Of a DNA stretch of 25,823 bases, positions 6,201-25,823 are shown in pieces. Every line of letters starts with the position of its first letter. Positions within the stretch are counted from its first letter, which is position 1. The notes below the pieces were generated by a model. The model was not told the origin of the DNA. It saw only the letters and a list, made by a program, of their open reading frames with translations, and did not search any database. Origin of the DNA: Ectocarpus siliculosus (taxonomy: Eukaryota > Sar > Phaeophyceae > Ectocarpales > Ectocarpaceae); assembly GCA_000310025.1 (NCBI GenBank), contig FN648751.1, forward strand, positions 1-25,823, in the 5' to 3' direction. The position numbers and the translations under genes are program-made.

Positions 6201-9200
6201 TTCGCCGCGCATGTGCCCTACGCGATCTTCCGCCGATTTTTGCATTTCAGGTAATACCACTTCGGCCCCCACCACCTCGGCCCCTACCACGTCAGTAGTT
6301 CCTACCAACTCCTCACTGGAGTTTGTAAGTACTGTGCGAATGGAAGTTGGAGATGACATTACTATTTTGGGGTGTTCAGATTCATGGATCTATGTGGAGT
6401 CGCCAACTTCACCTACCATTCAACCAGATGAGCTTTTGCTCATTATGAATGGTCAAGAAGGCGTGTCATATGCAGACACCCTGGTTGATTCGTGTGAATG
6501 TTTTCCCCTAATGAGGAAGATTGTTGGGATCGAAGCTTCTCAAGAGCACAGTGGGATTAGTTGTGCTGGGTCGAGTTGTTGGATCCTGACCTCAGAATTG
6601 CTGACCCCGCTTGACACCGTCTCTGGTACGGATGTTGATGACCTCGGTTTAACCGAGCTCCAAGACGTTCCCTGGGAGTCTCTCGCAGGGAGCATATGTG
6701 TTCCGAGTGAGATCAATGGTCGTAAACTGTTGGGGGAATGTAGGGATGCATGGGAAGGTCCACCTTGTCCCTACAATGATTGTCCGGATGGCAAATGTTA
6801 TGAATGTTCGTCAAACCCGAGCGGTTGTGATAATGGATGTGGTCCGGCGGATTGGCCGAGTGCAGCTACTAGAATTATCGCAGAACTCACACCGTTCGGC
6901 AACGGGTGTTGCAACCATGACTACTGCTGGTCTGCCAGACCTGACGACAAGAGTGGCTGTGATTTGGAATTTTGGGGGGATAACCTCGCCGGATGTTGGA
7001 CTACTTTTGGGTTTCTTGCGATTATTAACCCTAAACCCTTAGCCGCATGTAACATTGTCGGCACAGCGTTTTATCTTGCTGTTGCTCTGGGTGGGAATGA
7101 CGCCCATGAAGAGGCCGTCCAGAAACAGCGAGATTGGGAAGAAACCTGCCAAGCCACACCCGCACCCTCTCCCACGCCCGAACCGGTAAGCCTCCCTATT
7201 GGCCGGTTATCGTTGCTGGAAATTCGAGACGGATCTCCCTTCCTGCGATCGTACGCGTATTTCTCGTATTCGTTTGCTCCGAGCCGTCGTTTCAAACTAC
7301 AGGAGGTATTCCGCGCTAGGGCTCTGCCGGGTCATTCGGGGACAACAATCGCGCCGGCACAGTCTAACACGTGCCTAACATACGATACACACGCTTTGGA
7401 GGGCAGAGCGTACCCCGGCTGCCTCCAGCCAGGCTGGAAACGTGGATCGGTCCGGGCCACACATGACATTGAACGAATGAAGTACCATCGACAATTGATT
7501 AGGCCATACGAACTGCTGTACCAGTGCTGAGTTTGGTGTTTCGGCGGATAGGCCGGAAACAGCACGATGTCGATGCCTAGGCCGAGGGAGCCGTAATGCT
7601 TTGGTTAATCCACCGTAGTTTTCCCCCACTTGTTGCTGATCTTATCAACAACCACATGGACATAAACTTACCCGCTCTTTCAACCCACCCCCTTCGTATC
7701 ATTCTGCCGGTCGCAATCCATCTTCGACCCCTTCCTTCTTCCCGGTTTCCCGTGCAGAAACGCGGTAAGGAGAGATGGAAGAAGCCTCCAGCGTAATATA
7801 TTTTGTCTGATACGCGCTTTCGGCGTATACTGAGAGAGTTTAAGGCGTACCCCACTTGTGGCCGTGGCCTCGCCGCCCAAGCCCATGCTTGACCTTCTAC
7901 CGATGACCTGTTCCACCTTGTCTGGCCTGCAATGTCAGGTGGATCCGCAGACGGAGATCCTCACTTGCGGGTCTACGACGGCACCGGGTACGACTGCCAC
8001 GGGCAGGGCGAGTTTGTGTTGACCAAGGCTGCCGCCACGGAGAGCGAAGTCCAGGCCCGTTTCCAGCAGTGGAGCCAAAACCCGGACCCAGCGGTCACCG
8101 TCACCACCGGCATCGCAGCGCGCGAGGGAACCTCTTCTTTGATCCAGGTGACGACGGCTGCCTCCGGCGGTGTCGAGGTCTTGGTGGATGGAGAGCTGTA
8201 CGACGCGAGTGCTTCTTCTGTCATCGGAATTGCGCTCGAGGTCACGTCGTCTCGGGTGGAAATTAGCTTTGAGTCGGGACTAGACGTGTTCGTGTCAACC
8301 AGCATTAACGGAATGCTGAGGGTCAACGCGTATGCGCCCGTCAGCCTCGCCACTACGGGTCTCCTCGGCAACAACAACGGAGAGCTGGGCGACGACTTTA
8401 CGGTGAGCGTGAGAAAAGACCTGGCGAATCAAATCATGCAACGATTTTTTCAGTCATGCACTGCGGTTATGCCTCACCAAGACCTCGGTTGGTGCTGCAT
8501 TGTGCGTTGTACCTCTGCCAGCATCTACATGAATTAAAGGCCGCCGCTGTTTGCTTCAACTTGAAGTGTTACCGAAGTACTTCCGCGACTCTTGTTCCTC
8601 CCTCCCGTCAATTTGTTCGCCGATAACCGGTGTTGTCCGTGCGTCGAACTTGTGCCCGTCTGCACTTACTGTACCCCTCTCTCCCTACTCCACACACCTC
8701 ATCGAGTAGAACAGGAGATATTTTGACGCTTGAGGTCCCTCCCCTTGCTGAACGCGGCAGACCGTGGACGGAGAGACTGTCGGCTTCGCGACTGCCTCAC
8801 CGACAGTGGAAGAAGGCACGAACTACTGCACCACGAACTGGTGCACCACGGCAGACGCGTCTCTCTTCACCTACGCGGAGGGGGAGGACCACGGCACGTT
8901 CGACTTGTGCGACGCGGTCTACGCGGCGCCCGTGTTGCCCGATACCATCCCGGCGTCAATCACAGAGGTACGTTCGGGAGAACACATCGGGTTTCGGCGA
9001 AATACCAAAAACTCGAACACATGTCCTCGGGGTCCCTGGGGCGCACTGTAGCTGGCCGCGTTTGTTTTGAGTGCGATTCGACACGGTTACATAGACTACA
9101 ACGTCGACATGTGCCCTCCATGAAGGAGCAGAGCTGTTTTCGTGATCGATCGCACAGTAGTAAATAGAGCGTCAGGGGCTCCCATACTTCTCGTCATCAT

Positions 9201-15282: not shown

Positions 15283-15676
15283 AGCTCGTCTACCTTTGGG
15301 CAGGTGGTGGTCAAAGATGGGAGTCGCAACCGTGAAAAATGAGCTGGCAAACTGAAGAAATCGCAAGCAACACCCAGGTTGCGACACTCTGCCCTGCGTC
15401 TGTTGTTGCTGAAAACTGAAAACAGCAGGCCAGGTGGACGGGATCTTTCTAAGTGTGTTGTCCTCTGTGTCGGGTGCTGCTTATTACGCTTTCACCGCTG
15501 CTCTATGGTGAGCAAGCGATGTCAACCTGTTGTGTGTCGAGCAAAGCGTGTATTCAGGGAAGGAAACGAACTCTTCGCGATGACATCACGATTAGAACAA
15601 GGGAAAAATAATCGGATCTTCTTTTCACCGTTCCGTGAAAAAAACGTTTTTTTTCGTTGCGTTAACAATAACCCTA
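15283..15676 (+). repeat. 395-bp direct repeat, copy 1
   Basis: Runs from AGCTCGTCTACCTTTGGG to AATAACCCTA and matches 16387-16783 with few substitutions over most of its length, more in the A-rich last 100 bases. It lacks TG...CA ends and no primer-binding site follows, so it is not a convincing LTR. Confidence 0.8.
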
Positions 15677-15909: not shown

Positions 15910-16380
15910 TTGTGGAGATGGACAAGCGGCAGAAGCGGCGTTCAGTCCGTTCTTGGCCCAAAACTAGACATTGCGTGGTGCTCTCGTCTTCAACTGCTGC
16001 TGTTGGTGCTGGGGAATTTTTTTCGATCACACATTGCAAACACGGTAACAGTAGAACGAGTACAGCAGCACCACAAAGACCTCCAAAGCGCTGATTCCTT
16101 TGGTTCGGCTGTCTATATGATACCATCTCCCGGCGCCGTGCTGCTTCGTGGGTATTGAGTGCTTGGGTGCTGCTCAATAAGGTGTGTGAGAGATGTGTGC
16201 CACCTCACCAAAATGCCGTTGGAAAAATTGCGGCGAGATGATCTGTTTTTGGTCGGACACATCAACATCAATCCACGGCGTCATGCAGCAGCAGTAGAGC
16301 AACAGGGCCTCCAACACGCTAATTCTTTCGGATTGGCCATCTATATGATGCTGGCCGTCAGCGCGGCTGCCGCCCTATGA
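15910..16380 (+). other. Two adjacent related small ORFs between the direct repeats
   Basis: Frames 15910-16158 and 16159-16380 are adjacent. They share an alignable segment: HIANT...LQSADSFGSAVYMI in the first and HININ...LQHANSFGLAIYMM in the second. The nucleotide differences in this stretch are largely third-position or give similar residues (D/N, V/I, I/M), which hints at past protein-level selection. No family is recognised and no start or splice context is convincing, so this may be a remnant of a repeat-protein gene. Confidence 0.3.
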
Positions 16381-16386
16381 TTGTTG

Positions 16387-16783
16387 AGCTCGTCTACCTT
16401 TGGGTAGGTGGTGGTCAAAGATGGGAGTCGCAACCGTGAAAAATGAGCTGGCAAACTGAAGAAATCGCAAGCAACACCCAGGTTGCGACACTCTGCCGTG
16501 CGCCTGTTGTTGCTGAAAACTGAAAACAGCAGGCCGGGTGGACGGGATCTTTCTAAGTGTGTTGTCCTCTGTGCCGGGTGCTGCTTATTGCGCTTTTATC
16601 GCTGCTCTATGGTGAGCAATACCATGCCAACCTGTTGTGTGCCGAGCAAAGCGTGTATTCAGGGAAGGAAACGTACTTTTTGCGATGACATCACGAAAAG
16701 AACAAGCAAAAAAAAGTCGGGTTTTCTTTTAACCGTTCCGTTTAAAAAAGAACGATTTCGACGTTGCGTTAATAATAACCCTA
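16387..16783 (+). repeat. 395-bp direct repeat, copy 2
   Basis: Second copy of the repeat at 15283-15676, about 1.1 kb downstream in the same orientation. Both boundaries are abrupt: the flanks of the two copies do not match. Confidence 0.8.
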
Positions 16784-17410: not shown

Positions 17411-18411
17411 AAAAACATCGCTCGCGCCCTCTGGGCGACGCCCGGGGTCGCACTCCTCTCATTACTGACTCCTTACCGTCGGCTGTTCCCAATATTTCTT
17501 CTTAGCGTCGTAGTTTCATGTACGAGTTGGTCTCTCTTGGGTTCTGTTTTATTTTTATTTTTATTTTTCTTGTCTCTTTTCTTTGTTGGTTTATTTAGTG
17601 TTTGGGTGCAGGGCCAACACGGCCTCAAGACACGCGGTGTCGAATGATTCTTCTTCCTTGTTGCATGCATTCGTCTGAATCAGTGAACTGCCGCGACCTG
17701 GATGCAAGTTCTCTCTCGTCTTTTCCTTGTTTTTTTATTTTTTTTGTTTTTTTTCTGTTCGTTCGTATTTGGTTCTTCTGAAGGGCTTCCTCCGAAGTTT
17801 CCTCCGTCCGTGTGGTTTGCCTCTGAACACTTGGAAAAAGAGTTCCCCAAGTTTCGTCGGTGTTGTTTCCCTCTGAACACTTGGAAAAAGAGTTCCCCAA
17901 GTTTCGTCGGTGTAGCTTGCCTCTGACCAAGTGGACACCGAGTTCCCCGTGTTTCCCTTGGTTCGTCTTTGGCCAACTAATTTTTTTTCCTTTAGCTCCA
18001 CCGTGCCGCAGCAGTGAGTGTCGTCTAGGCCTATTACTTCGGGCTTCCATCCCGTTGCGTCGTCTTCTCCCGTGGACTTTCGTCGTCATCCACACTTCGT
18101 TCTACTTCGTCTCCGTCATCGCTACATGCAGGCGACGCCTTCATCATCGTCGAGCCCTTGAGTCGTTGTGTTGTTGTGTGTATCTCTGCGACTTTTTTTC
18201 TGTGTTTATGTCTTTCTTCTGTGTTGTGCATCGCCAGCGAGCCAGGGCGAGGTTCGTCAGATCGCTTCTCAGACGTCTTGCCGTGGCCGCCTCTCTATAC
18301 GGTTTGGGTTCCTTGACACGCTGGAAATTGTTCTCAGTGATTTTGCCTGTCGTTCGTTTCTCCCGCCCTTCCTTGACGCTTTCCTAGATTGCGTTGATTT
18401 TTTCCCCTTTA
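17411..18411. other. T-rich intergenic DNA with a 50-bp tandem repeat; no gene seen
   Basis: Strong T bias on the plus strand, with TTTTTA runs at 17545-17575 and T runs at 17728-17755. A tandem repeat of period 50 (CTCTGAACACTTGGAAAAAG) starts at 17821 and 17871, with a diverged third copy at 17921. The period is not a multiple of three. Confidence 0.6.
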
Positions 18412-18615
18412 CAGATGGCGCCCGCACTTAAGAACCTACCTGTTAAGAACATGAGGCTCAAAAAATCCAAAACTCATGAACATGAGCGTATTTTAGTGGT
18501 CCCCGTTAAGAACCTCACACTAAAACCTATATAATGGCCATTCGCAGCCTCAACAGGCAACTAAGAACCCCAGCCTCACGCAAATTAAGATGTTCTTAAG
18601 TGCGGGCGCCATCTG
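18412..18615. mobile_element. 204-bp TA-flanked MITE
   Basis: Perfect 24-bp terminal inverted repeats (CAGATGGCGCCCGCACTTAA, then GAAC) are flanked by TA (18410-18411 and 18616-18617). CAG ends and TA targets fit a Tc1/mariner or pogo-type element. Its TIR differs from that of the element at 3307-5790, so a different transposase is expected. Internally, TTAAGAAC-like words recur (about 18429, 18444, 18506 and 18561). No coding capacity. Confidence 0.88.
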
Positions 18616-19410
18616 TACGTCGCGTCCAGTATCAAAGGCCGTATTCGTTCGGAAATTTGCTTGGGTTTTAAGTTTTGTTGCCGTATTTTGGGACTCTCTC
18701 GGGTAGTCACCCTCATTCCTCCCGTTTGTCATACGCGCGGGTGCGCGTAAAGAGTGGTGTGTGGCGTTTCGGTTTTGATTTTATTTCCCTTGTCGTCGTC
18801 TGTCGGGGATAGCGTGCTCTGCAGCACTACATATTTTTTTTTGGCTTTATCCCTTCATTGGTATGAGCGTTGTCATTGAGATGTCGATGTGTCGTCTCGT
18901 GACCGTCCGATCCTTCTTTCGTCTCATTGGTGGTGTGGGGGTTGATTCGGGATATTTCTACAACTCACCCTCCTTTTGGTTGTTTTGTGAAGAGTCATAT
19001 CTTCGATTCATGAGCATCAACCGTCAGCTAAAATCTTTATTGTAGCTTTTTGGATTTGAGCATTGATTTGATTATAGAATCTGCATATATATATGATATT
19101 CAGGGTGGGCTAGTGTTAAGGAGTGTGGCTGCTAGCTTAAATAGGGTATATCTTATTGTTGATAGGATGTGGGTCGGTCCCAGGAGGTACACCCTTCAGA
19201 CACCTACCCTCTTAGGATTTGTCTCGTCTGCGTAGTACCCCCTGAGGTGAAGTTGGATCCCCACTTCACCTCAACCCTTGCTGATCGTCTCTCAGCAATA
19301 ACAAGCAACTTTCCCATCTCAACGTGGTCGTGGACAAGCGTGTCAATGACAGAAAGAACCTACCTTCATCTATCTCTAGGAGCAAGCTACCGCCCACGGC
19401 TTCACCTCTT
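18616..19410. other. A/T-rich intergenic DNA; no gene seen
   Basis: No domain-like frame. One clean hairpin (10-bp stem GAGGTGAAGT, 9-nt loop) lies at 19244-19272. Confidence 0.5.
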
Positions 19411-19760
19411 TAAAATGGGGTCTCGTGAGATAAAAAAAAAATATTATTGCCAACATGCCGTTACTCATGGGCGCCCATGATGAGAATCAATATGTATGGT
19501 GTCTCGTGGTGCCCCATGGGACACCATGGGGTCTCGTGAGATAACAAAAAAAAAATATTGCCAACATGCCGTTATCTCATGGGCGCCCATGAGAAGCAAT
19601 ATGGTGTCTCGTGGTGCCCCATGGGACACCATGGGGTCTCTCTCGTGAGATAACAAAAAAAAACTTATCGCCAACATGCCGTTATCTCATGGGCGCCCAT
19701 GAGAATCAATGTGAGTGGTGTCTCGTGGTGCCCCATGGGACACCATGGGGTCTCGTGATA
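19411..19760. repeat. Tandem repeat of about 110 bp, three units
   Basis: TCTCGTGAGA recurs at 19421, 19532 and 19641, and as TCTCGTGATA at 19751. Each unit contains a poly-A run, TGCCAACATGCCGTTA, a palindrome built on CATGGGCGCCCATG (a full 20-bp TCTCATGGGCGCCCATGAGA at 19575 and 19685) and GTGCCCCATGGGACACCATG. Confidence 0.88.
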
Positions 19761-20640
19761 TAACATGAGACTCACCCCATGGGACCCCATGGAGTATGTA
19801 TCATGACATACAATGAGACTTACCCCATCACACACCATGGGATTCCATGGGATACCATGAGATGGCTGTCTCATTAGACCCCAGGGGGTGCCATGGAAGG
19901 ACATGAGACACCATTACATTCTCATGGGCGCCCATGGGGACGCTAAAATAACTCTTTTTTAGTTGTTGTGGATCTCATGACCCACCATGACCCACCATGA
20001 AACACCATGGTTGGTTCACCACGGCGCACCATGAGGCCCCTTGACACACACATTTATTTTCCATGCATCTCATGAGAATCTCATGAGAAATCTCATGGGG
20101 CACCATGGCCATTTTACTCAAGGATATTTGGCTAAAATTTATTTTGTTGATTCAAGATTATTTTTCTAAAATCTTATGATCCGTCGTGAGGGACCATGGG
20201 TCCTCGTGGTGCACAATGGGAGGTTTGGTAGACTCATGGGCGTTCGTGGTACCCCCCGTGAGGTTGTTTAACAAAAAAATGTTTTTCTTTTTATTTGTCT
20301 TTCTGTATTTCTTTTAACCAACCGTGGTGCGCCATGGTCGCCCATGGTACACCATGAGGTCCAATACTTTACCTTTATTTTCATAATAAATTTCGTTTTC
20401 TGTTTTATATCCCCATGTCATGTCTGCTCATGGTGCACCATGGGTTCACTATTCCCAAAGTCCCATGAGATCGGCCATGGCATGCCATGAGCTGACACGG
20501 AAATAAATGCTCTCGTGGTGCCCCATGGCCTATCTCGTGGGACTACATGAGACCCCATGAGCCTGTTCTCATGGTAGCTCATACGACCTCATGGTTCCTC
20601 ATAGTGCCTCATGGGCCCCCATGAGACGCCATATTATCGT
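19761..20640. repeat. CATG-decamer tract
   Basis: Over about 880 bp, short words of the form (C/A)CATG(G/A)(G/A), with CGTG variants, recur at about 10-bp steps. ATG falls at 19779/19789, 19837/19847/19857, 19893/19903, 19924/19934 and 19987/19997/20007. From 20571 to 20640, seven consecutive decamers each begin ATGG, ATAC, ATAG, ATGA or similar. A/T-rich spacers (for example 19942-19970 and 20116-20176) break the tract. No frame is conserved across it. Confidence 0.8.
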
Positions 20641-21123
20641 TTTTTATTCATTACACAATAATGTTATAGTCTGAAAAAAGGGGGAAAAAAAATAGAAAAA
20701 AAAATGAAAAAAAAATGAAAATAAAATGAAAACAGAGCGAGGACAAAAAGGGACCAGGCCGAAAATAACAAGAAATAAGAGGCAGAAACAGGCACACGGT
20801 GGAGAGACCACTTTTAGTTACCCCGGTTCTTGCCTTGTTTCCCATAGAGTTTTGTTCTTGCCCCGGAGCGGTGTGGCCCTCCATCTCTGGACTCTCTCCT
20901 TTCCTCTCTCTGGGGCATACCCCCACGGCGTGCGGTTTTACGCTGAAAGGAAAGGAAGGGTGGTGGGTGAACACTGTGCACAGCATACCAAGGGCACGAA
21001 GCTGGAAAAGGCGTTCACCTGTATATGGCACTGTAGTAGTGTAGAGGCTACAGCAGCAGCACCTTCAATAACGCAGCATGTCGTTGGCAGTATTACAGAA
21101 GAAGACAAAAACAAACTTGCAGT
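20641..21123. other. A-rich run followed by non-coding DNA
   Basis: A-rich low complexity at 20675-20745 (repeated AAAAAAAATGAAAA). The frames at 20726-21148 show no domain-like features. Confidence 0.45.
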
Positions 21124-22485
21124 TCACGATGTGCATCCAATGCATTGATACATCAGAATCACGTCAGAACGGGGACGGGTAACTCCGGGAAAATGTGTCC
21201 AACGTCCTGACTTACTCGGAACAAGTTCCTCAGATAAACATTCATGTTTTAACTCATTGACCAACTCAAATAACCTTCGGAAGCACAAAGGCTTCAACCA
21301 TGACTTACGAGAACATGCCAAATCCTTCCTCCAATACCCAATACCTTGACAAACATACCAGTCCAACAGCCCCCCTGCTGTAACATCCATCCCAAACACG
21401 AAGAAACCAAACAACCAACTCCGAAACAAACATGAAGAAACCAACAAATCCAAACAGACAATCAACAATCCCGCATCCCCCAACCAACAGATCCAAAACA
21501 GACAATCAACAATCCCGCATCCCCCCTGCTGGGACATCTCATATAAACGCAACGAAAATCCCATTCAATATTTAATTCCATGTCACCTCCGCAGGTAAAA
21601 CGCGGAAAACGATCCAAACATGAACTACCCAAATCCCATTAGTCTAGCCAACATCAATTCCATATAAAATCCCCAGGGAAAACACGGAAAATCTCAACAT
21701 GAACTACCACCCGATGTCAGAAACACTGCTTGTTGTGCTGCGGCGGACAGCATGGTATCACATTTCCCCCCCCATGATTTCCGACAGCAGTGCAACAATC
21801 AGGCGTGATTCCGCAAAATCCAGCATGCCAATTCTGCATCCAACTTCATCAACTCCAAACCGAAACAAGAAAACAAAACATATCAAAGAAAAGGCGTCAC
21901 ACGCCCAGCGCATACCAGCCTGCCGTACAGGCCTACTTGGAAAGGAAATTGGTATTCCGCAAGGATTGACTCGTCGGGTACCGGTACATCGGGGGGACAG
22001 AGAAACGGTGCGCGCCCCCCAACGTCTTTACCCAGCACGTCGAACGCCAAGCCAACGCCTACTACATATATCCAGTACCATCAGAAAAACACAGTGGTAA
22101 CTACCATAGAGAATGTTATCCCAACAAAGAAGGAAAACCAAAGTGGAACAAACCGTACGCAGAAATATTACTACCACCGCCATTTGAGATATTGTCTTGG
22201 CAAACAACAGCCCCCCGGCCGCAACATTCCATTTGTCTCCCAGAAAAACAACAGTAATCTACCATGGAAATTTCCTGCCATTGGGCCGTGGAAATTAGTG
22301 TCCCTGCAAGGTAAAACGCGAGTGGACATCTCTACAGAACAAAACCAAAGCAAATCCAAACCTGCGAATGCGCCAACGATAGGAAAAGTGATTTGCAGAC
22401 ATTCAACCAACGATGAAAAGTGCAGCATTGTATCTGAAGATCAAAACACAAGAACAACATCCTGCACACAACGAATAATAGAAAA
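21124..22485. repeat. A/C-strand-biased degenerate repetitive region
   Basis: The plus strand is very rich in A and C over much of 21340-22490. A 44-bp unit (AACAGACAATCAACAATCCC) is repeated at 21453 and 21497. CCCCCTGCTG..ACATC recurs at about 21371 and 21525. Diverged copies of a unit with GGTAAAACGCGG and CATGAACTACC occur at 21594-21630 and 21680-21710, with GGTAAAACGCG again near 22310. Open frames exist (21699-22100 and 22094-22489) but read as low-complexity K/N/Q/T sequence. Confidence 0.55.
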
Positions 22486-22606
22486 ATGACAAGAAGAATA
22501 CGCAAACAAACATCACGTGCCTTGGCGAGTTTAAGACCCCAGCAGAAGTCGCGCTGCTTGCCGTCATTGTTGGACTCGCCCGGTCTTCCGAACTCCCTTC
22601 CCCGCT

Positions 22607-24322: not shown

Positions 24323-25189
24323 GGGCCGGTCTTAACGAAGGAATCGGTTCTCGATTTCGGATTTGATTATAAGAATACAAGAGCCCGGGTCTACCCAAAT
24401 CCGGACAGAAATGGCCTGTTCTGTGTGTCTTAACGGGAGATCTGCCAAATGGAAACGAATCTCTGCAGTCCACCACGAACAACCCGAGAGGTCCGCCGCT
24501 TGCCAACTGCCAGATTGCTGTTGTGACGTACTGCTATGACGTGGCCACACCACATGGGGAGCTATCGCTCCCGAGAAGCACACACCAAACGCGTACATGG
24601 CCTCTGTGTGGTACTGACACGATGTCTATGCATGTGACACTTTGAATCGACCCTCGTCCGACGGAAAGCCGCCAATTCGTCTGTGCATTTGAAGTTCGTC
24701 AACCCACGGGAGATTGCCCCACAGACCAACACATACATCCCACACACGTTTTTTTCGGGACCAGATGCTGGTGATGCTCCTGGTCACGCCCCCCGCCTTG
24801 CGAATAGGACATTCTTCCTCTACTGCTCTTGCGCAACAAGGTGCCCCACCGTGGGTGTGCCTGTGCGCACTCCGTGCTGGATTGGTGTCGCGGCTTGGTG
24901 TGGCACCTTGCCACGGCACTACTTTCTTTGCGTCAGTGCGTCACTTGCCGTCGACTGGACCGCTAATGTTCGAAGTTGGTTTCGTTTCACCCAAATCGGG
25001 ACCCGATTAAATCATTTTACCATTATTTTGATTCCCGATTTGGAGAGGGGGGATCCGATTGTAAGTCCTAAAGATTCCACGGGTTCCAGAACTTTTAGCC
25101 AATCAACAAGAGAGTTCTTTGGATCTTGTGGTCTTACAATCAAATCGGGAAGTGAAATCGGGAACCGATTCCTTCGTTTAGACCGGCCC
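24323..25189 (-). mobile_element. PIF/Harbinger-like non-autonomous DNA transposon, copy 2 (inverted)
   Basis: An 867-bp element, the inverted near-identical partner of 699-1558, with the same GGGCCGGTCT termini. It has a 3-bp duplication TTA (24320-24322 and 25190-25192), which differs from TGA at copy 1 and so shows independent insertion. Differences are scattered single bases and a few small indels (one near 24420). Small frames conserved in both copies (97 and 71 codons on one strand, 98 on the other) follow from the high identity and are not evidence of coding. Confidence 0.87.
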
Positions 25190-25823
25190 TTACATCTCCC
25201 GCACTTTCCTCTGGGAATTACTCCGCAATACCGTTGGCACTGGCTACATTCAAATCCCTTAACACGTGGGCGGTAAAACACGTCGGGAAAATTCCCGACG
25301 AATACCCTGAATTTTTTCAACCCTGACCACATTTTCATCGAGTGCATACGGAGTTCTTGACGTGCCGCTCCCGTATAACGCTCCCATCAACCCGTCGCTG
25401 AAGGACTTCCTATTCTGCACGCTGGCTGTTGATGGTCGCTCGGCACGCGTCCCTAAAAAAGAATGTATCGCATGACATCAAGCATGGAGAGGCCGCAACA
25501 GGCCAAACCGCCACGTGACCGGAAAAAGAGCCGCTTTTTGTCAGAGAGGGGAGGACACCGCAACCGATTCCTCGCTCCCTAGGCCACCGATCGAAACCGG
25601 ACCGGTGCGGGCGTGCTCTTTGTTCCTTGGTCTCTCCCGGAGTATATTTTGTGGGCAGCGTGTACTCTCTATCGACGGGGATAAGCATGCGCGTGGTGCC
25701 CGTTGCTTTTGCGAACTGTGAAAAATTGAAAATACTAGACTGCTTGCTGCCTGGAAACAAAATTCTACAGACAGCTTGTGCACACGCAGACGACGATTTC
25801 GAATGAGTGGATTAATGAGCTCC
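25190..25823. other. Right flank; no firm gene
   Basis: Contains a 9-bp-stem palindrome (CGTCGGGAA/TTCCCGACG) at 25281-25300 and the small ORF at 25344-25475. Nothing else is recognised. Confidence 0.4.
25344..25475 (+). CDS. Possible 3'-terminal exon or orphan ORF, unknown
   Basis: A frame ending at TGA 25473-25475 reads AYGVLDVPLPYNAPINPSLK, then DFLFCTLAVDGRSARVPKKE. Its composition is more protein-like than its surroundings. There is no ATG; an upstream stop lies about 40 bp away, and a possible acceptor (atcgag) precedes it. No family is recognised. Confidence 0.2.
   Translation, partial: AYGVLDVPLPYNAPINPSLKDFLFCTLAVDGRSARVPKKECIA

Follow-up and report, generated by a model that had tools for sequence, protein, structure and literature searches.

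About 1.2 kb of non-coding DNA in the brown alga Ectocarpus siliculosus is built from ten-base units centered on the word CATG, and this tract is probably a decayed decamer minisatellite in which the core of the unit has outlived its flanks. The DNA examined was positions 1 to 25,823 of contig FN648751.1 (referred to below as the window), and its coordinates are given on the forward strand.

Extent and structure of the tract

CATG or CGTG words (together CRTG) had been described in an earlier note as recurring at 10-bp steps between 19761 and 20640, with autocorrelation proposed as the check. The pattern was confirmed. This interval contains 48 CRTG words, 41 CATG and seven CGTG, and they form 22 pairs at lag 10 compared to 2.6 expected, a number reached in none of 1000 random placements. 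Lag 10 stands well above the neighboring lags, 9 and 11, which have one pair each. There is also an excess at lag 20 (11 pairs vs 2.6 expected). CATG alone gives 16 lag-10 pairs where 1.9 are expected, placing it at the top of all 256 tetramers in the tract. CACG was found twice compared to the seven CGTG words, an asymmetry too small for interpretation.

While the signal is present in the interval described, its true start lies earlier, at about 19415, and within a 110-bp tandem repeat. The start was shifted because this adjoining repeat is built of the same decamers. The combined region (19411-20640) holds 70 CRTG words and 34 lag-10 pairs vs 4.0 expected, although copies of the 110-bp repeat cannot count as independent. 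Beyond this region, the window has just two lag-10 CRTG pairs, at 16137 and 19329. The features of the region are as follows.

19415..19765: 110-bp tandem repeat, 3.2 copies, of CATG/CGTG decamers plus an A-rich stretch (TRF, 88% matches; unit list)
19575..19594: perfect 20-bp palindrome consisting of two decamers; second occurrence at 19685-19704
19761..20640: decamer-phased CATG/CGTG tract, YCYCATGRGR (lag-10 pairs, column counts)
19836..19859: three phased CATG in a run
19976..20009: four phased CATG in a run, with spacers ACCCAC, ACCCAC and AAACAC (TRF, 10 bp, 3.4 copies)
20067-20097: tandem piece, 2.7 copies (TRF)
20108..20184, 20261-20322 and 20357-20413: AT-rich stretches free of CRTG
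20185..20248: five CRTG sharing a phase (20185, 20195, 20205, 20235 and 20245)
20323..20356: four phased CRTG in a run
20514..20559: CRTG at 20514, 20524, 20536, 20546 and 20556, with a single 12-bp step
20568-20614: 20-bp tandem piece, 2.3 copies (TRF)
20570..20640: seven phased CAT words in the order CATG, CATA, CATG, CATA, CATG, CATG, CATA

The last of these had been reported as seven perfect decamers beginning at 20571. Seven phased words are present, but they begin at 20570 and three of them are CATA, leaving four CATG. Just past the right edge of the tract there is an 11-bp A-rich repeat of 4.3 copies (20685-20732).

Exactly 10 bp separate neighboring CRTG words in 21 of the 47 gaps in the tract; other gaps include 12 bp (4/47) and 14 bp (3/47). 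Three of the CRTG-free AT-rich stretches measure 57-77 bp and a fourth 39 bp. When the word 10 bp from a CATG was not itself CATG, it was one change away in 17 of 47 cases and unrelated, with three or four mismatches, in 27 of 47. This split speaks for a decayed array, being what clear edges and point decay would leave.

Minisatellites are tandem repeats with units of approximately 10-100 bp. The tract has a constant step and a unit in this size range, and it shares with minisatellites its head-to-tail pieces and the 110-bp tandem section. It differs in that its units are strongly diverged and near-palindromic, the core is kept while the flanks drift, and unit-free gaps extend up to 77 bp. TRF found only short pieces in the tract itself (3.4, 2.7 and 2.3 copies) in addition to the adjoining repeat of 3.2 copies. 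An Ectocarpus subtelomeric satellite of about 98 bp, described as carrying telomere motifs, is unlike the tract as far as that description goes (PMC11541908).

Unit consensus and conservation of the core

Alignment of the 48 units on their cores gave the consensus YCYCATGRGR, in which a pyrimidine precedes the core and a purine follows it in 92% of units each. The consensus is near-palindromic, reading almost alike on either strand. When complementarity around each core was scored, no matched changes on both sides of the core were seen within single units; therefore, the symmetry belongs to the consensus and not to each unit. Higher-order palindromes were also considered and rejected. There was no excess around cores, and the excess around spacer centers was weak and limited to the central spacer pair (10/23, p = 0.053, or 17/35, p = 0.012, with the non-independent 110-bp copies added).

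The flanks separate the tract from two known elements. The response elements of the p53 family are RRRCWWGYYY decamers, and they resemble the tract in having tandem decamers with a central CATG-like core. The flanks of the tract are reversed, however, with the pyrimidine before the core and the purine after it. The plant RY element is CATGCA, and a C directly after the core was found in 4% of the 48 units.

Core conservation was scored in triplets of units chosen by their outer CRTG cores only, because picking units by their own core inflates the apparent conservation of that core. Across 11 triplets, the middle core equaled its left neighbor in 35/44 columns and the left and right spacers agreed in 34/66 (Fisher p = 0.0045). 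In the triplet at 20062 the middle word is out of phase, and this counts against a minisatellite. With the non-independent 110-bp copies included, the counts were 55/68 columns for the core and 48/102 for the spacers. On these few triplets, the core outlasts the other six positions of the unit. The spacers are partly alike, as expected of copies, yet less so than the cores.

Spacers were also compared across the region. In the tract alone they did not recur beyond column composition (11 pairs vs 8.4, p = 0.22), and this counts against a minisatellite. A slight excess appeared when one 110-bp copy was added (21 pairs at a match of at least 5/6 vs 14.0, p = 0.048). Adjacent spacers were weakly more alike than random ones (3.0 vs 2.34 of 6 positions, p = 0.07, nine pairs), a weakness that also weighs against the minisatellite.

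Another possible explanation is a phased binding array, in which a symmetric dimer would read CATG in short cooperative runs at one-turn spacing and selection would keep the cores. The better preservation of cores than of spacers, the strong preference for a pyrimidine before and a purine after the core, and the runs of three to four units spaced about one turn apart would all be expected of such sites. We nevertheless think it rather unlikely. The 21 gaps of exactly 10 bp are a signature of copying, neighboring spacers agree as copies would, the phase of the whole tract is not significant (see below), and no protein, promoter or gene was linked to the tract in this analysis.

A cluster of N6-methyladenine (6mA) sites at the ApT of CATG is extremely improbable. 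C(6mA)TG sites have been reported in Chlamydomonas (PMC4835550), and in the AMT1-bearing species studied in PMC12695648 methylation falls mainly in an AT context. As the Chlamydomonas sites are described, however, ApT is required and there is no flanking preference (PMC4835550), so that, on this description, 6mA explains neither the CATG core nor the 10-bp step.

Helical phase, bending and folding

Phase is kept within runs of about two to five units and shifts from run to run. The best period for the whole tract was 10.78 bp, and in gap permutations it was equaled at some period by 10% (CATG) or 15% (CRTG). Taken as a single period, uncorrected for the period search, 10.78 bp gave a gap-permutation p of 0.003-0.005, which is a point against the minisatellite. 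Inclusion of the 110-bp repeat raised the gap-permutation p to 0.49-0.68. The same test found no excess in the tract at periods of 10.0 or 10.5 bp, and it gave p = 0.034 for the second half (10.7-bp period) and p = 0.98 for the first half. A global helical phase was rejected as a candidate. It had appeared significant by random placement (0/2000 at 10.8 bp), but the significance was lost under gap permutation, and the random-placement result was set aside because that null ignores the gap distribution. The suggestion that all cores face the same side of the helix is thus unsupported over the tract as a whole, given a phase p of 0.10-0.15 and the lack of excess at 10.0 or 10.5 bp.

It is also very improbable that the tract is a nucleosome-organizing element, a candidate of the earlier note, in which phased flexible CA/TG steps and purine/pyrimidine alternation would fix one rotational setting. 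Nucleosomal DNA has a period of approximately 10.2-10.5 bp, and the step here is 10.0 bp. Nucleosome-positioning DNA also shows 10-bp purine/pyrimidine alternation, and this the tract shares at short range (agreement of 0.62 at lag 10 and 0.576 at lag 20 vs approximately 0.5). A positioning element should hold its helical phase over at least about 150 bp; here gap permutation gave significance in the second half alone and not in the whole tract, with or without the 110-bp repeat. Bending predicted from roll values was ordinary for the window, at 14.3 degrees per 100 bp in the tract vs 14.1 elsewhere.

The tract had been expected to fold on itself, and its predicted folding was indeed strong relative to shuffled sequences (z = -7.5 with DNA values over 20 shuffles; z = -8.4 with RNA values over 40). 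Permuting the order of the spacers left the folding energy unchanged (-334.9 observed vs a mean of -332.4, z = -0.29, 40 permutations), so the unit consensus by itself accounts for the strong folding, and a folding signal beyond the unit was rejected.

Surroundings of the tract

The window contains several other repeats. At 18410-18617, 0.8 kb upstream of the pattern, lies a 208-bp MITE-like element whose terminal inverted repeats match perfectly over 26 bp. Each end of the window has nearby a copy of one element (698-1467 and 24421-25190), the two being inverted relative to each other and 98% complementary. A duplicated block occurs at 15283-15644 and 16387-16749, about 1.1 kb apart, with two pieces that are 97% and 87% alike. 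The window also has an exon with a von Willebrand D domain in an open frame (7932-8402, E = 1.1e-10), followed by a putative intron at 8403-8760 (GTGAGC...GCAG, read by eye) after which the frame can continue from 8761; these features point to eukaryotic DNA. An ORF at 6211-7530 carries a CCNHDYCW motif reminiscent of phospholipase A2 and had no Pfam match at 0.001. A search of the window against Rfam gave no match at the gathering score.

A repeat-rich window with a MITE-like element nearby could suggest that the units belong to a mobile element, as subterminal or internal repeats to which its transposase would bind. Among the inverted pairs in 17500-22500, 10 of the longest 25 (the best 25 of 70) bracket the tract, and several have their right arm just past its right edge, at 20684-20736. 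However, the arms of these ten pairs are T-rich and A-rich and 73-83% complementary, the left ones sit 0.6-1.9 kb ahead of the tract, and they look like low complexity. In addition, four ORFs tested beside the tract gave no Pfam match at E 0.05, and thus no transposase domain. We consider a mobile element distinctly unlikely.

Similar arrays in Bacteroidales and viral contigs

A scan of prokaryotic contigs for four phased YCATGR units returned at least 119 stretches. Many of the matches listed were simple repeats, and several were Bacteroidales loci with YCATGR decamers and variable spacers. In one of these, L104, all 30 CATG pairs between lags 6 and 15 fall at lag 10, and 17 of the 30 spacers are distinct. 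Thirteen loci were picked from the at least 119 for the variety of their spacers, five of them (L104, L123, L140, L159 and L167) being contigs of one assembly. The core outlasted the spacers at p < 0.05 in 11 of the 13, the exceptions being L127 and L152. It did so in none of seven simple repeats, in which the units are too nearly identical for a difference to show. The Bacteroidales arrays mapped were the following.

L104: 1636-2716 and 5504-5561
L140: 2654-2791, 5278-5342 and 6256-6370
L167: 2156-2270
L101: 429-513
L117: 1529-1603
L123: 3439-3513

They are short and mostly intergenic, and several begin, judging by crude ORF calling, 5-45 bp past a stop codon. The same kind of call was applied to 60 arrays (L091-L209, all organisms) that have four or more units and three or more spacers, and 52 of them are non-coding. 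Both neighbors were seen for 44 arrays, and for 31 of these the closest gene end is a 3' end.

One 3.3-Mb Bacteroidales genome contains 41 YCATGR triplets at a 10-bp step and, as the sole genome tested at 11 bp, none at that step. This genome and its relatives, 61 in all, gave 75 forward matches in 10 genomes at the 10-bp step, or 34 matches in nine genomes without the 3.3-Mb genome. The controls in the 61 genomes were low: seven matches in five genomes at a 9-bp step, none for YGATCR at 10 bp, and, for the backward-read motif, none in 60 genomes and one in the remaining genome. Matches were also present in all eight genomes that were chosen through the loci, a set that overlaps the 61 by two; in one of the eight (G067) the backward control gave 7 vs 6. 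Four phased units were found only in the 3.3-Mb genome among 148 genomes of the phylum, indicating that the trait is patchy.

These arrays share with the Ectocarpus tract the 10-bp step, the CATG core, the pyrimidine before and purine after it, and variable six-base spacers. They differ in being prokaryotic, strictly 10 bp in step, mostly TCATGA in core, and shorter. They are look-alikes of the tract, and nothing in the comparison suggests common descent. Among the matches listed from the open-access literature, titles and abstract openings gave no published description of arrays of either type.

Viral contigs contained 90 stretches with four phased CATG. Of the 20 viral loci with at least six lag-10 pairs per kb, none has both YCATGR flanks in a majority of its units and a large number of different spacers. 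An exact search of viral contigs for the 20-bp palindrome that occurs in the 110-bp repeat gave no match. One viral contig (L022, about 1999-2095) has a degenerate decamer array of opposite flavor: in 13 of its 21 CRTG words a purine precedes the core and a pyrimidine follows it, and eight of nine spacers are distinct.

Discussion

The proposal of a minisatellite with a fixed core, made in the earlier note, fits best among the readings considered, on the strength of its exact decamer step and a core kept better than the spacers. The excess falls exactly at lags 10 and 20 with none at 9 or 11, 10-bp and 20-bp TRF pieces survive, and the phase of the whole tract does not go beyond gap permutation. 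The slight spacer recurrence seen with one 110-bp copy added and the lack of Pfam matches in the four neighboring ORFs tested also count in its favor. We suggest that slippage or unequal exchange copied the near-palindromic unit head to tail, 10 bp at a time. Point changes and insertions would then have split the array into short phased runs between AT-rich stretches, and the 110-bp tandem section is probably a later re-amplification.

A neutral minisatellite should lose core and spacer equally, so something extra must hold the core. The likeliest process is copying or conversion seeded by the self-complementary core, in which cores would be re-copied while spacers drift. Alternatively, a CATG-reading protein may bind the cores. 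A broader reading, which we offer tentatively and think will more probably prove wrong, is that CATG decamer arrays form a recurrent class that arose independently here and in Bacteroidales. A process acting on CATG, either copying through the core or a core-binding factor, would keep the cores one turn apart while the spacers drift.

A repeat finder requiring roughly 70% likeness among copies would report a tract like this in fragments only, and other such tracts may therefore have been missed. A functionless tandem repeat should decay evenly; in this tract the core has lasted longer than the other positions. If a mechanism holds the core, and not chance, such arrays would show how the cell can still recognize repeats whose sequence has mostly drifted.
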